Positions 8,335 through 14,028 of a stretch of 64,000 nucleotides of DNA are shown piece after piece. A program made the position numbers and the translations under genes. Position 1 is the first letter of the stretch. Each line of letters starts with the position of its first letter. The notes below the pieces were generated by a model that saw nothing but the letters and a program-made list of their open reading frames with translations, was not told the origin of the DNA and did not search any database. Source of the stretch: an uncultured Synechococcus sp. (GTDB lineage: Bacteria > Cyanobacteriota > Cyanobacteriia > PCC-6307 > Cyanobiaceae); the NCBI GenBank assembly GCA_913057985.1, contig CAJXPL010000014.1, positions 1-64,000 on the forward strand, read 5' to 3'.

Positions 8335-9009
8335 GTGATCGACGCCCGCAGTCACCACCCCATCCAGAACCGCTGGCGGGCCGCCATGCCCGTCTCGGCA
8401 CCGGGGCCGCTGCCCACTGTTGTGGAGCAGTCCGGTCGCGGCGACCGCGCCTTCGACATCTATTCCCGCCTGCTGCGGGAGCGGATCATCTTCCTTGGCA
8501 CCGGTGTGGATGACGCCGTTGCCGATGCCCTGGTAGCGCAGATGCTGTTCCTCGAAGCCGAGGATCCAGAGAACGACATTCAGATCTACATCAACTCACC
8601 GGGGGGCTCGGTGACCGCTGGCCTGGCGATCTACGACACGATGCAGCAGGTCGCCCCGGACGTGGTGACCATCTGCTACGGCCTCGCCGCCAGCATGGGC
8701 GCGTTCCTGCTCTCCGGGGGCACCAAAGGCAAGCGTCTAGCCCTGCCGAACGCTCGGATCATGATTCACCAACCCCTCGGCGGTGCTCAGGGCCAGGCGG
8801 TGGACATCGAAATCCAGGCCAAGGAAATCCTCTATCTCAAGGAGACCCTGAACGGGTTGATGGCCGAGCACACCGGCCAGCCTCTCGACAAGATCTCGGA
8901 AGACACCGACCGCGACTACTTCCTTTCTCCGGCAGAAGCGGTTGAATACGGCCTGATCGATCGCGTGGTGGACAGTTCCGGGGACGGAGGAATCATTACG
9001 GAGGGCTGA
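8335..9009 (+). CDS. clpP: ATP-dependent Clp protease proteolytic subunit
   Basis: Serine peptidase that forms the barrel fed by ClpX or ClpC. Catalytic Ser120 lies in GLAASMGAF and His145 in MIHQPLGG; the aspartate is in the EDTDRDYF segment near 189-196. The substrate-binding strand [11 protein letters not shown] is intact. The GTG at 8335 gives 224 residues with a 30-40-residue N-terminal extension that may be processed. An ATG at 8386 would give a shorter form. The gene starts 43 bases after tig and 90 bases before clpX, so it very probably partners with the adjacent clpX. Cyanobacteria have several clpP paralogues, so the exact paralogue number is not assigned. Confidence 0.94.
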
Positions 9010-9099
9010 CAGACGCCCTTCCGTTCTCGATCCTGTGTGTTCAGGGAGACCCCATCGGTTGATTCCTGAATTGTTCTCCTGCGTGGTGCCCAGCGTTCG

Positions 9100-10446
9100 A
9101 TGGCCAAGTTCGACGCCCATCTGAAGTGTTCGTTCTGTGGGAAATCCCAGGATCAGGTGCGCAAGCTGATCGCCGGACCTGGCGTTTACATCTGCGACGA
9201 ATGCATCGATCTCTGCAACGAGATCCTGGATGAAGAGCTGGTGGATGGGCAGGGCAACCCACGCCACAGCCATGAGCCGAGCCGAAAGGCCACCCCAGCC
9301 GCCCGCAAAAGCAGCAAGCCGGCCCCCACCCTGGCTTCCATTCCAAGGCCGCAGGACATCAAGAGCTTCCTGGACCAGCAGGTGGTCGGCCAGGACGCGG
9401 CCAAGAAGGTGATGTCGGTGGCGGTCTACAACCACTACAAACGTCTGGCCTGGCAGGGGGATGGCCAGGGTGAAACCGAGGAAACAGCAACCCGGCTGCA
9501 CAAGAGCAACATCCTGCTGATCGGACCCACCGGCTGCGGCAAGACGTTGTTGGCCCAGACCCTGGCCGAAATGCTGGACGTGCCTTTCGCCGTGGCCGAT
9601 GCCACCACCCTCACCGAAGCGGGCTACGTGGGTGAGGACGTGGAAAACATCCTGCTGCGTCTGCTGCAGAAGGCCGATATGGATGTGGATCAGGCCCAGA
9701 GGGGCATCATTTACATCGATGAGATCGACAAAATTGCCCGCAAAAGCGAGAACCCTTCAATCACCAGGGATGTGTCCGGTGAAGGGGTGCAGCAGGCCCT
9801 GCTGAAAATGCTGGAGGGCACTGTTGCCAACGTGCCGCCCCAGGGAGGCCGCAAGCATCCTTATCAGGACTGCATCCAGATCGACACCAGCCAGATCCTG
9901 TTCATCTGCGGTGGAGCCTTCGTCGGCCTTGATGACGTCGTACAGAAACGGATGGGCCGCAATTCCATCGGTTTTATGTCAAGCGATGGCCGCAATCGCA
10001 GTAACCGTGATCTACAGGCCAGCCAAGTGCTGCATCACTTAGAGCCAGACGATCTGGTTCGCTATGGGCTGATTCCAGAATTCATTGGTCGAATTCCTGT
10101 AAGCGCAGTACTCGATCCACTGGATGAACGCATCCTGCAGTCCATCCTCACTGAACCACGTGATGCTTTGGTGAAACAATTCCGCACGTTGCTGAGCATG
10201 GATAATGTGGAGCTTCAGTTCACAGATGGCGCAATCGAAGCCATCGCCCAAGAAGCACATCGCCGCAAAACAGGAGCGCGTGCTTTACGCGGCATTGTTG
10301 AGGAACTGATGCTTGATTTGATGTACGACCTTCCCTCTCAAACCAGCGTGAAAGAGTTCACAGTGACACGCGCCTTGGTCGAGGAACATACCGCGGGGAA
10401 CGTGTTGTCTTTACCAGGGAATCAGCGACGCCAGGAATCAGCTTGA
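9100..10446 (+). CDS. clpX: ATP-dependent Clp protease ATP-binding subunit ClpX
   Basis: AAA+ unfoldase that recognises substrates and threads them into ClpP. The N-terminal zinc-binding domain has Cys10, Cys13, Cys32 and Cys35. Walker A GPTGCGKT is at 142-149, the pore loop GYVG at 175-178, and Walker B IIYIDEID at 203-210. The ClpP-docking IGF loop (SIGF) and sensor-2 segment GARALRG are present. It is full length. Oddly, base composition drops inside the gene: a 60-base line at 9541 is about 62% GC by hand count, while lines at 10021 and 10141 are about 50-52%. This lower-GC tail leads straight into the atypical patch downstream. Confidence 0.96.
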
Positions 10447-10548
10447 GAAAGCATGGCGCCTGCCCCAACAACAAAAAAGCATAAAGAATCCAAAACTATA
10501 AGAAAATTTCTGGCAAATTATTGAGAGTCTCCTACGAGCAATCTCCGC

Positions 10549-11916
10549 ATGGCTAAGTCCAAAGGGTTCAAATTTTCTAAGTGGTTAAACAACCAAACAA
10601 AAAGCAATCTAAAGAGCAAAGACAACAATCCATCCAATTCTCAATCTGACGTTTACAATAAGCAAAGTGGTCGAGGAGTTTTAGCAAGATTTTTGCCAGA
10701 CGGTGAAGCACGTCCAAGAGGCAATGAAGGAGTAGCAGCAACTTTTCTGCACCAAGATGTTGTCACACCAAACCAGACTTATAGCGTTAACACTGACAAT
10801 GATGATTGGGTACCCTACCCTAATTATGCCAATCTTCTAGCAGTCGCCAAAAATCCAAACCAACTCGGTGGACAAGGAAATTTCTCAAAAGCACGTGGGA
10901 ACGAAAGCTGGGGTTATGGCGTTTTCTATGCTCACGACTCCAATTCAGTTGACCTAAGAGCCGTACCCTTTTGGAACAATAAAAATGATAGGTTTAACAA
11001 AAGACCTGATGGTTTTAAGGCCCCAGGATATTGGGGAACCTGGAATAATAATGGAGAAATAGTATGGTATGAGGATCTAACAAACGCTGATGGTACTAGA
11101 CAAAATGGATCAGGGAATGATTGGCTCAATATAGGAAACCCCGGAGTAGAAGGCCCAAAATATTATGGGCTAGGGACAGGAATACATGTAGAAAATAATT
11201 ATATAGATGCCATAGCAAATAAAAATCAAGAATTCAGCTGGCCAAATAGTGGATATGACAAATCCTGGCTACACGACGGAATCACAGGATGGTTCGGAGA
11301 ACTTGATTACAATTTAAAAGGGAATAATAATACCTGGAAAGCTTATGTCGATACAATGACGAGTGCAGCGTTGGATACTTTTAAAGTTTCTAAAATAGGC
11401 GACCTTGACTGGAACAACACCCCCACCAACCAAGGATGGTTAGATGCCGGCTTTAGCTGGGTCAACAATCCTACCGACATGATTAATATACAAAACAGTT
11501 TCTACCTGAACCGCAAAAATTACTTGAACAAAAAGCAATCTCAGCGAAGCAATTATTGGGGATGGAATGAAGTACCGACCAAGAACGCATACTGGAATAA
11601 CGCAAACAACATCAAGGGCTCTATCATTACATTACCCCTGAATTTCAAAGGAAAAAAAATTAATAAAAAAAGTGGATGGAAAAAAATTAAAAATAAAGTA
11701 TCTGACTTGATCGATCAATACAAGAACTATGTCCTCGACGACGGTAACTCTTTTGACGTCTCCAAATTTATAGACGGCAAGCCAATCGCTTTCGCTCAAA
11801 CTCTAGAAAAGCCATACGGAAATAGCTTATTTGAAATGACTTATACTTATAACAATAAAGAGTTGAAGGGCGATAATTTTACGATTACTTCTGAAGGAAT
11901 CTTAGATATTTTCTAA
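10549..11916 (+). CDS. Orphan Trp/Asn-rich, cysteine-free protein of an AT-rich patch
   Basis: Not recognised. The 455-residue product has 19 tryptophans, very many asparagines and lysines, and no cysteine. W/N/G clusters recur throughout (GYWGTWNNNGEI, DWNNTPTNQGWLDAGFSW, NYWGWNE). There is no N-terminal signal peptide or membrane span; the first 35 residues are basic and polar. The C-terminus ends in a short hydrophobic stretch (SEGILDIF), which together with the lack of cysteine would suit type I secretion; that is inference only. The gene is far more AT-rich than its surroundings (the line at 11041 is about 35% GC, at 11641 about 15%), so acquisition by transfer is likely. No clear ribosome binding site precedes the ATG. 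Confidence 0.7.
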   Translation: MAKSKGFKFSKWLNNQTKSNLKSKDNNPSNSQSDVYNKQSGRGVLARFLPDGEARPRGNEGVAATFLHQDVVTPNQTYSVNTDNDDWVPYPNYANLLAVAKNPNQLGGQGNFSKARGNESWGYGVFYAHDSNSVDLRAVPFWNNKNDRFNKRPDGFKAPGYWGTWNNNGEIVWYEDLTNADGTRQNGSGNDWLNIGNPGVEGPKYYGLGTGIHVENNYIDAIANKNQEFSWPNSGYDKSWLHDGITGWFGELDYNLKGNNNTWKAYVDTMTSAALDTFKVSKIGDLDWNNTPTNQGWLDAGFSWVNNPTDMINIQNSFYLNRKNYLNKKQSQRSNYWGWNEVPTKNAYWNNANNIKGSIITLPLNFKGKKINKKSGWKKIKNKVSDLIDQYKNYVLDDGNSFDVSKFIDGKPIAFAQTLEKPYGNSLFEMTYTYNNKELKGDNFTITSEGILDIF

Positions 11917-12009
11917 AACGACGAATAGTTAATCCAATGATTGCCAGCTTCATAGACCTTTTGATATAATGGATTCGAGTAAAGCGATTATTAACCATCA
12001 AACAAGTTT

Positions 12010-12644
12010 ATGGAGCTGGCGATCATCTCGTTGTTCCCAGGCATCATGGATTATTCGTACATCACGGAATCAATCTGGGCGATGGAACAGTCGCTCATTA
12101 CCTCGAAGGGAAGCAGATCATTCGCAGTTCATTGGAGGAATTTAGTCAAGATCAGACCATTAGCGTTATCGAGCATCAACATCAATCGCCTATTGGTGTG
12201 ACTCTCCGCCGAGCCATGAGTCGGCTCGGCGAACAGAATTACAATCTCTTGTTCAACAATTGCGAACACTTCGCAACCTGGTGCAAAACCGGGCGCCATC
12301 GCAGCGGCCAGGTGGACTCCGTGCTGGAGCGGGCCCGCCATTGGAGTGGTCTGATGCCATCAGCCCTGATGCGCGGTCTCGAACTGCTTGTGCAACGGGG
12401 TCTGCTGGACGACGACGCCCGCGCCATCGCCCGACAGGGGGTGGACAAACTGGAACAGCTGCGCCAGTCGCTGCTGCGCAAACTGGAGGGCCTGCTGGAA
12501 CGGGCCGGAGACGGCACGGATCGCCGGATGCTGCTCACCGGGCAGAGCCTGGCGGATGAGCTGGCGGCGGTGGAGGAGCTGAAAACCCGCATTGATGCCT
12601 TGCTGCAGCTACCAGAGTCACCAGACGGTGCCAGCCGGAACTAA
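12010..12644 (+). CDS. LRAT / NlpC-P60-like protein whose start is out of frame
   Basis: The frame containing codon 12132 encodes a circularly permuted papain-like LRAT-type domain. A histidine motif (GDHLVVPRHHG, then VHHGINLGDGTVAHY) lies at 12018-12107, and the cysteine motif NNCEHFATWC follows near 12253. A helical, GC-rich C-terminal region of about 100 residues comes after. The frame is open back to 11970 but has no ATG, GTG or TTG ahead of the histidine motif; the first is TTG 12132, inside the domain. The ATG at 12010 is in the next frame (MELAII). One extra base between 12012 and 12018 would give MELGDHLVV, a natural start. So this is a frameshifted gene, a sequencing error, or a non-standard start. 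Family members are thiol acyltransferases or hydrolases; the substrate is unknown. Confidence 0.6.
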
Positions 12645-12683: not shown

Positions 12684-13631
12684 ATGCTGGCCATTTCTGG
12701 GCATCATTCGACAAAACAAACACATTCCATAGGCAGCAAGGCCGCTTTAAAACTCCAAAATCTCGAAGCCTGGAAACGCGAAGAAGGGTATTGGTTTGGC
12801 GAACTCAGCTTTCTAAACAAACAAGGGCGGTACGACTACATCGCCACAGAAAGCCCCACCGGCGGCCAGTTCGATTATCGAACGTATTATGGATTCATCA
12901 ACCTGCAGGTTGAGAAAGGAGAACTGAAGCAACGCAATATATTTGTTCGCCCTCCACTGAACATTGAACCGTTCGATCTTGATGCCGATCAAACGGTTTC
13001 CACCGAGGAGCTGCACCTGTTCGGCTTCACCAGCCCCTTCGGCTACACGATCGACACCAAAACCAAAACAGCAACACCGGTCAACGAGGAACTCAGCCCT
13101 TTTCAGTACAACGAAGGCACAGAACAAACCTTCACTGCCGATCAAAGTGGAGCCAACAAGAAAGGAACCCTGACAGGAACCTATTTCGGCATTCCAACGA
13201 CCACACAAACCCTGGGAGACAACACCATCGTCTACACGGTCGGCACCGAGCAGACCGGATTGTTCCAGAACCAACTCACCACACTGCCCAACCGCAACGG
13301 ACGCGTTCGCACCGCCCAGGGCTTCGCAGGCAATCAACCGACCTACGCCAGCTTCTATCGCGAAACCAAAGTCCTGCCAAGCGTGGACAAGAAGGGTTAT
13401 GTGACACGATCGGCCCGCGATAACTTCCTTGATCTTCTGGCGGAGAAACGCATCAACGCCAATGTGCCAGACGCACTGAAGACCGAAAACACCTCCGACT
13501 TCTTCACAACCGGCCTGGAACAAGCCGATGCCAGAGGCATCACGATTCCGGAGCTGGAGCTATCGCTGGATGCCGCCATTTCCGCTGATGCATCCGAGAA
13601 AAAATCAACTCAAAGGCACATCAGGCGATGA
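12684..13631 (+). CDS. N-terminal fragment of a split RTX-like protein
   Basis: The 315-residue frame has no recognised enzyme motif. It is beta-rich, cysteine-free and lacks a signal peptide. Segments such as YDYIATESPTGGQFDYRTYY and FTADQSGANKKGTLTGTYFG suggest an extracellular adhesin-like or surface domain. The frame is lost just after an A6 run at 13599-13604 and ends in a short nonsense tail (STQRHIRR). Reading one A fewer joins it directly to the downstream fragment (SEKNQLKGTSGDD), giving one protein of about 447 residues. The intact ancestor was therefore probably a single gene at 12684-14028. This could be a real pseudogene or a homopolymer error. Confidence 0.55.
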   Translation: MLAISGHHSTKQTHSIGSKAALKLQNLEAWKREEGYWFGELSFLNKQGRYDYIATESPTGGQFDYRTYYGFINLQVEKGELKQRNIFVRPPLNIEPFDLDADQTVSTEELHLFGFTSPFGYTIDTKTKTATPVNEELSPFQYNEGTEQTFTADQSGANKKGTLTGTYFGIPTTTQTLGDNTIVYTVGTEQTGLFQNQLTTLPNRNGRVRTAQGFAGNQPTYASFYRETKVLPSVDKKGYVTRSARDNFLDLLAEKRINANVPDALKTENTSDFFTTGLEQADARGITIPELELSLDAAISADASEKKSTQRHIRR

Positions 13632-14028
13632 TCTCTTCACCCTCGGAGGCAACAAACGCAGGATTCTTGGCAAGGAGGGAACCAACACCTATGTGATCAC
13701 CGGCTTTGTCAAAGGAAGACAGGCCGATGTAATCAGGGATTTCAACCCCGCCAAGGGTGACCGTGTGGTGCTCTCACCGGATGCCATCACCGCCAACCCC
13801 CACGACAGCCTCAGCTTCGCGGTTGCAGCAAACAGAGCGGAATTCCGGGCGCTGAAAAAAGACGCACCGGCTGTGATCTATCGCCAGGACCGCGGAGATC
13901 TGATTTTTGATGCCAACGGCGCCCAGCGCGGCCTGGGTGACGGTGGACGATTCCTCCGGCTCAAGGACGCGCCTGAACTCGACGTTGACAGCCTGTTCAG
14001 CCACGTGATGCCGGAACCCGCAGCCTGA
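13588..14028 (+). pseudogene. C-terminal fragment of the split RTX-like protein
   Basis: This frame continues the previous gene after the A6 run. Its N-terminal part (LKGTSGDDLFTLGG, then DVIRDFNPAKGDRVVLS) matches the style of hemolysin-type calcium-binding ends of secreted cyanobacterial proteins, where GT.GDD..T is followed by a DF.P..D.I strand. It has no cysteine. An in-frame ATG at 13588 lies before the A-run but has no visible ribosome binding site, so independent translation is doubtful. The fragment reads well to its natural stop at 14028. Type I secretion would be expected for an intact protein; that is inference from family style. Confidence 0.5.

Follow-up and report, generated by a model that had tools for sequence, protein, structure and literature searches.

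Few parts of marine picocyanobacterial genomes are as poorly understood as the strain-specific exported proteins, and in the part of an exoproteome study on which we draw here, 54% of predicted exported proteins are given as uncharacterised (PMC4949707). According to the same part of that study, chitinases without a signal peptide were detected in marine Synechococcus exoproteomes, and an abundant exoprotein of WH7805 carries a serralysin M10 domain (PMC4949707). In the present work we analysed a protein of 455 residues encoded in a stretch of 64,000 nucleotides from an uncultured Synechococcus sp. (contig CAJXPL010000014.1, positions 1 to 64,000), which is referred to as the window.

The window protein can be compared with three kinds of described protein. 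It has no signal peptide, like the chitinases, which as far as the cited part of the study goes are encoded by only some strains; however, their export was measured there, whereas that of the window protein is inferred, and neither a chitinase nor a carbohydrate-binding domain is present in the window protein. With the RTX metalloprotease-like proteins of two same-genus regions (L056 and L059) it shares its setting, a gene standing alone in low-GC DNA at the junction between clpX and an LRAT-domain gene, and a similar size (421 and 442 amino acids in those regions). It differs from them in that neither an RTX nor a protease model matched it, and a tblastn comparison of its sequence with the L056 and L059 regions was negative at E 1e-3. 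The third comparison is with DUF4114 (PF13448) proteins: the relative of the window protein in Synechococcus sp. UW140 consists of the family core followed by DUF4114, whereas the window protein lacks DUF4114, its chain ending after the core. We consider it reasonably probable that the open reading frame (ORF) is a lone, laterally exchanged accessory exoprotein gene, and that its product belongs to an undescribed family with one globular core.

Composition of the window protein

The gene under study is:

10549..11916, plus strand: ORF for a Trp- and Asn-rich, Cys-free protein of 455 amino acids, member of an unnamed family (ORF list, composition, alignment and profile search)

The ORF begins with ATG and runs for 455 codons without a stop. 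An earlier note on this DNA had counted 19 Trp in 455 residues, with no Cys and no signal peptide, and this was confirmed: Trp makes up 4.2% of the protein, Cys is absent, and the N-terminus is not hydrophobic on a hydropathy reading (best 15-residue Kyte-Doolittle mean -0.09). Asn is also abundant (65 residues, 14.3%). Among 52 long, mostly non-overlapping stop-to-stop frames of the window, the ORF itself included, the protein ranks first for Asn (mean 2.8, SD 1.9) and second for Trp (mean 1.3, SD 1.0), and four of the 52 frames are free of Cys. The GC3 of the ORF is 0.38, compared to 0.69 for clpX and 0.73 for dnaX.

The earlier note had further described clusters of Trp beside Asn and Gly and a W/N/G periodicity, and had suggested a repeat-built protein. 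Neither pattern exceeded the level set by composition. Asn was found within two residues of Trp in 11 of 19 cases against a shuffle mean of 8.8 (p 0.22), Trp occurred with Gly in 8 of 19 cases against 6.1 (p 0.23), and the autocorrelation of W, WG and WNG was not above that of shuffles (p 0.20-0.42). Self-BLAST of the protein gave no internal match, the best 20-residue self-match (7) was below the shuffle mean of 7.5, and a DNA repeat search returned a single 15-nt pair. With no repeats, no periodicity and a conservation that lies in one non-repetitive core, the idea of a repeat-built protein is not supported.

A rare family with one conserved core

Iterative searches brought up nine relatives, in genomes of cyanobacteria, gammaproteobacteria and the Micrococcales group and in unclassified ones (with names and contig assignments taken from the deposited records), and the window protein is thus not the orphan it had been taken for. 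In 386 genomes of the phylum one full-length relative was found, that of UW140 (33% identity, E 3.8e-26), and a search of 400 genomes of the family gave a second, in the LacPavin cyanobacterial MAG (E 2.7e-19). When genome contigs were scanned with the window sequence alone no relative was obtained; the same scan with a three-row alignment gave five loci, i.e. UW140 and LacPavin again and three further loci in the MAGs Gammaproteobacteria MED690, Micrococcales NAT138 and bacterium TMED88. A second TMED88 copy was added by a profile search (the two copies are called TMED88a and TMED88b). In the order of NAT138, four of 166 genomes matched, NAT138 included, which added three more genomes (G1081, G1137 and G1153). 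Short weak matches (E 0.002-0.26; L002, L003 and L005-L008), four of which came from the 386-genome phylum search, were set aside as chance.

A profile built from the seven non-cyanobacterial members recovered the window protein at E 4.3e-20 and one of the four NAT138-group members at E 2.1e-10, E-values that apply to the small test set of 564 window frames, 200 shuffles, the reversed protein and the ten members. Up to E 10, the same profile matched only family members and no shuffle, reversed protein or unrelated frame of that set. Judged by these sequence comparisons, the family, for which we coin the name DSNS/GWNE, is real, rare and scattered over unrelated bacteria, and it is an unnamed and undescribed protein family. 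It was present in 1 of 34 genomes of the genus (E <= 0.01), 3 of 400 of the family and 2 of 388 of the class, counts which each include the window's own genome and come from overlapping genome sets. Beyond the named members, none was found at E <= 0.01 in the 34 genus, 388 class, 90 TMED88-class and 194 MED690-order genomes.

The window protein gave no match in phage and plasmid records, nor did MED690 in phage records or NAT138 in plasmid records, and no family relative was found when viral contigs were scanned. A phage origin found no support in these phage, plasmid and viral-contig searches. None of the titles and abstracts listed in literature searches, for which motifs cannot serve as queries, dealt with the DSNS/GWNE family or with clpX as an insertion point.

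The ten sequences, window protein included, were aligned with L-INS-i, which gave the following features:

10666..11646, plus strand: conserved core, residues ~40-366, common to the nine relatives (L-INS-i alignment of ten sequences)
10918..10959, plus strand: motif 1, GVFYAHDSNSVDLR, residues 124-137 (alignment)
11173..11187, plus strand: motif 2, G-x-G-x-H, residues 209-213, in 10/10 (alignment)
11554..11577, plus strand: motif 3, YWGWNEVP, residues 336-343 (alignment)

The core comprises approximately 330 residues in which variable stretches separate the motifs, and the tail beyond it is variable. The motifs were taken from the alignment that contains the window protein, and in their strict form they read GxxxR, Y-x9-R with DSNS-x-D between, GxGxH, W and GWNExP. 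Invariant in all ten sequences are G43, R47, P74, G124, Y127, R137, G209, G211, H213, W263, G338, W339, N340, E341, P343 and L362, of which G124, Y127 and R137 fall in motif 1 and the residues from G338 to P343 in motif 3. Among the residues found in nine of the ten are D130, S131, N132, S133 and D135 of motif 1, TMED88a being without D130, S131, N132 and D135 and TMED88b without S133. Contig edges remove the 3' end of TMED88a and the 5' end of G1153, and the start codons of several members are the analyst's choice.

Outside the core, a DUF4114 is added at the C-terminus of UW140 (E 2.4e-7), and G1153 has a pentapeptide-repeat piece on the N-terminal side (E 8.1e-6). Cys is absent from the window protein and from the UW140 core, and the remaining eight members contain 8-15 Cys. 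Trp content is 2.4-4.7% across all ten members. Asn content is highest in the window protein and UW140 (10.1%) and amounts to 3.8-8.7% in the other eight members, so that Asn-richness is not a family trait. AT-rich DNA is probably part of the reason for the Asn-richness of the window protein.

That no family is recognised, as the earlier note had stated, holds for the curated libraries, although not in the wider sense, since nine relatives exist. The best match of the window protein in Pfam was YycE-like_C at E 0.3, below cut-off; NCBIfam gave no match, and the best E-values in PHROGs and against PDB sequences were 0.2 and 1.6, respectively. Over the core, no member had a match at the curated cut-off in Pfam (all ten scanned) or NCBIfam (seven of ten scanned). 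PHROG and NCBIfam scans of seven of the ten members produced single-member matches to phrog_30088 (PHROGs, no function given, E 0.0022) and to invert_tail (E 0.049), and sub-threshold Pfam listings on other members included Hint (0.11) and HlyE (0.17). Profile searches of the PDB gave best E-values of 0.049 (three-row profile) and 0.99 (six-row profile), and 0.028 was obtained for G1137. The match at 0.049, a flavivirus NS5, was gone with the larger profile, and the antibody chains matching G1137 were judged to be chance. None of the PHROG and PDB matches was regarded as convincing. RTX glycine-rich calcium-binding nonapeptides (PF00353) were absent from the window protein, no CBM or adhesin model of Pfam or NCBIfam matched it, and the clear match to a cytoplasmic enzyme family that, by the earlier note, would have spoken against its proposal was not found. 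AlphaFold, run with six sequences each, gave a mean pLDDT of 31.7 for the full window protein and 31.6 for the TMED88a core.

The genomic site and probable import of the gene

The ORF lies between clpX and an LRAT-domain gene, and the surrounding features are:

9100..10446, plus strand: clpX, left neighbour (comparison with relatives)
9910..12278, no strand: probable imported low-GC block of ~2.3 kb, comprising the 3' part of clpX, the ORF and the 5' part of the LRAT gene (breaks in identity and GC3 against relatives)
11970..12644, plus strand: LRAT-domain (PF04970) gene, right neighbour (ORF list, Pfam)
12684..14028, plus strand: second insertion, in the LRAT-dnaX interval, with ORF315 (12684-13631) and ORF166 (13528-14028), mutually out of frame

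The clpX gene was located in 29 of 34 same-genus genomes, and the region downstream of it was compared in 20, with the window counted apart. All 20 regions have the order clpX, LRAT gene, dnaX, with clpX and the LRAT gene directly adjacent in 16; in the window the ORF splits this junction. Two of the 20 regions carry an RTX metalloprotease-like gene at the same junction (L056, 186-1451, on the clpX strand; L059, 191-1519), in DNA of 0.44 and 0.43 GC, respectively. Their products match HemolysinCabind (E 4.5e-23 and 1.1e-26) and, weakly, Reprolysin_3 (E 1.3e-4 and 1.6e-5). Judging from these genes, exoprotein genes seem to be inserted recurrently at the clpX-LRAT junction. In L057 the junction contains ~0.2 kb with no ORF of at least 60 amino acids. 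Separately, L064 was seen to hold at the junction ~1.3 kb of 25% GC (~100-1420, clpX strand), also with no ORF of at least 60 amino acids.

Comparison with relatives in 90-base segments of clpX gave a best-relative identity for the window of 91-99% up to position 9909 and of 59-83% from 9910 on, while the best identity of the median relative in the same segments after 9910 was still 94-98% (14 genomes). In five of the six segments after 9910, one or two of the 14 relatives were equally divergent, and in the last segment none was. On the other side, the best identity of the LRAT gene was 69% and 64% up to 12188, then 84% and thereafter 83-91% (20 genomes), and 0, 1 and 1 of the 20 relatives were as low as the window in the first three segments. 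GC3 of the window was 0.40-0.60 in the divergent part of clpX and 0.33-0.60 in that of the LRAT gene, compared to means of at least 0.70 in the relatives, eleven of the 20 genomes being entered twice in the LRAT comparison. With a relative-to-relative control, the ends of the block were placed to within ~90 bases on the left and ~180 on the right. Since both identity and GC3 change abruptly within clpX as well as within the LRAT gene, it is strongly indicated, from sequence comparison, that the ORF entered the junction in a lower-GC block of ~2.3 kb by recombination in both flanking genes. No donor genome for the block was found. On the simplest reading, the ORF would have come together with the ends of both neighbours, from a lower-GC relative that already had the arrangement clpX-ORF-LRAT.

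The LRAT frame is open from 11970, with no in-frame ATG, GTG or TTG before 12132 and an ATG at 12010 that is out of frame; the missing start may be due to a sequencing error, a rare start codon or damage during import. A sigma-70-like promoter match (11/12, with TG before the second hexamer) lies at 11941-11970, probably in imported DNA just before the LRAT gene, and promoter matches are no more numerous in this region than chance would give.

Concerning the second insertion, none of the 33 other genomes of the genus contained a match to ORF315, and neither ORF315 nor ORF166 was seen in the 20 same-genus regions. ORF166 contains a weak serralysin-like stretch (NCBIfam E 0.013, far below cut-off). 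The out-of-frame overlap of the two, at 13528-13631, is near a run of A. ORF315 and ORF166 may be one exported protein split in two.

Probable export

The earlier note had proposed export by type I secretion, and export receives indirect support from the N-termini of relatives, the DUF4114 of UW140, the RTX genes at the junction and two pairs of transport genes. Five of the nine relatives (NAT138, TMED88a, TMED88b, G1081 and G1137) have hydrophobic, signal-like N-terminal segments with a 15-residue hydropathy mean of 2.2-2.8, and those of TMED88a and TMED88b contain a lipobox-like Cys. By the same hydropathy reading, the window, UW140, LacPavin and MED690 proteins have no hydrophobic N-terminus, and no export signal, RTX repeat or DUF4114 was recognised in the window protein. 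Several of the relatives with signal-like N-termini thus look Sec-exported or like lipoproteins, and the cyanobacterial forms would probably use a type I-like or other route that is independent of a signal peptide.

Two pairs of an ABC-transporter and an HlyD gene are present in the window's genome, each transporter with a cyclic-nucleotide-binding domain; neither pair adjoins the ORF, and both are regarded as putative type I exporters. The HlyD profile gave 13 matches in this genome, none of which passed the curated cut-off, and it is unspecific, as it also matched in 13 of 14 control genomes. Going by its relatives and by the insertion site, the window protein probably leaves the cell.

Possible function and alternative explanations

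If the ORF is indeed a laterally exchanged exoprotein gene, one uncharacterised exoprotein can be assigned to a family, with three motifs that can be tested and a path by which its gene is exchanged. The gene would be a single-gene cassette that moves by recombination in the terminal parts of two core genes, into a junction that elsewhere holds other exoprotein-like genes, and activity, export and swapping would be directly testable.

As regards function, the conserved R, Y, D-S-N-S-D-R, H and N-E residues could form one putative active or binding site, and the protein might then be a putative secreted hydrolase or ligand-binder acting on an extracellular polymer, possibly a polysaccharide; both suggestions are more tentative than that of an exoprotein gene. 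An enzyme or binding site is favoured over a structural repeat since the conserved residues cluster in short motifs of the kind used in chemistry or ligand binding. A bolder version, in which the core is a new secreted enzyme domain with an active site of R, Y-x2-D-S-N-S-x-D-x-R, G-x-G-x-H and W-N-E, and in which the clpX-LRAT junction is a swap site of this Synechococcus-like genus where single exoenzyme genes are exchanged by flanking recombination, is conceivable and is put forward tentatively.

The same motifs might instead serve to bind a ligand or a metal or to maintain the fold in an exported binder or structural protein that has no catalytic activity and sticks to extracellular material. 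We regard this as a possible, if doubtful, alternative. It is in line with the fusions to DUF4114 in UW140 and to pentapeptide repeats in G1153, with the lack of a match to any enzyme family, and with the loss of part of motif 1 in TMED88a, but the short motifs with their invariant R, Y, H and N-E and with D-S-N-S-D in nine of ten members resemble an active site.

It is fairly unlikely that the window protein is cytoplasmic and shares only ancestry with exported relatives. In favour of this is the lack of a hydrophobic N-terminus in four forms, those of the window, UW140, LacPavin and MED690. However, exoproteins without a signal peptide occur in marine Synechococcus, according to the part of the study used here (PMC4949707), and the Cys-free core, the DUF4114 of the nearest relative and the finding of RTX metalloprotease-like genes where the ORF is inserted likewise argue against a cytoplasmic location, all of this being indirect evidence.

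A repeat-built carbohydrate-binding or adhesive surface protein, with Trp-rich repeats that bind sugars, appears quite unlikely. The high content of Trp and Asn, a likely extracellular location and the neighbours of some relatives, which may act on polysaccharides, fit such a protein; the lack of repeats, periodicity and any CBM or adhesin match does not, nor do the location of the conservation in a single core, free of repeats and with charged and His residues, and the absence of Asn-richness as a family trait. A chance open frame or decaying foreign DNA is extremely improbable. The low GC3 (0.38) speaks for it, as do the frame offsets that the LRAT gene and the ORF315/ORF166 pair seem to show, but unrelated bacteria have retained the core with its motifs, all 455 codons are open, and the family profile finds the protein at the E-value given above.

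Neighbours of the relatives

Ten neighbour ORFs of relatives were picked by hand for Pfam searches, and the neighbours differ between loci. Four of the ten hint at polymers: a GH18 adjoins the LacPavin member, a CE2 with CBM5_12 adjoins the NAT138 member, a GDSL hydrolase lies near TMED88b, and a GDSL match below the Pfam cut-off adjoins TMED88a. A glycosyltransferase is located ~5 kb from the G1137 member. Nothing polymer-related was found with Pfam in the remaining picked ORFs. Approximately 2.7 kb after the UW140 relative there is a gene for an AraC-type regulator (L013, 9867-10811; HTH_18, E 2e-16), and the ORF ahead of it (8836-9870) looks similar by eye.
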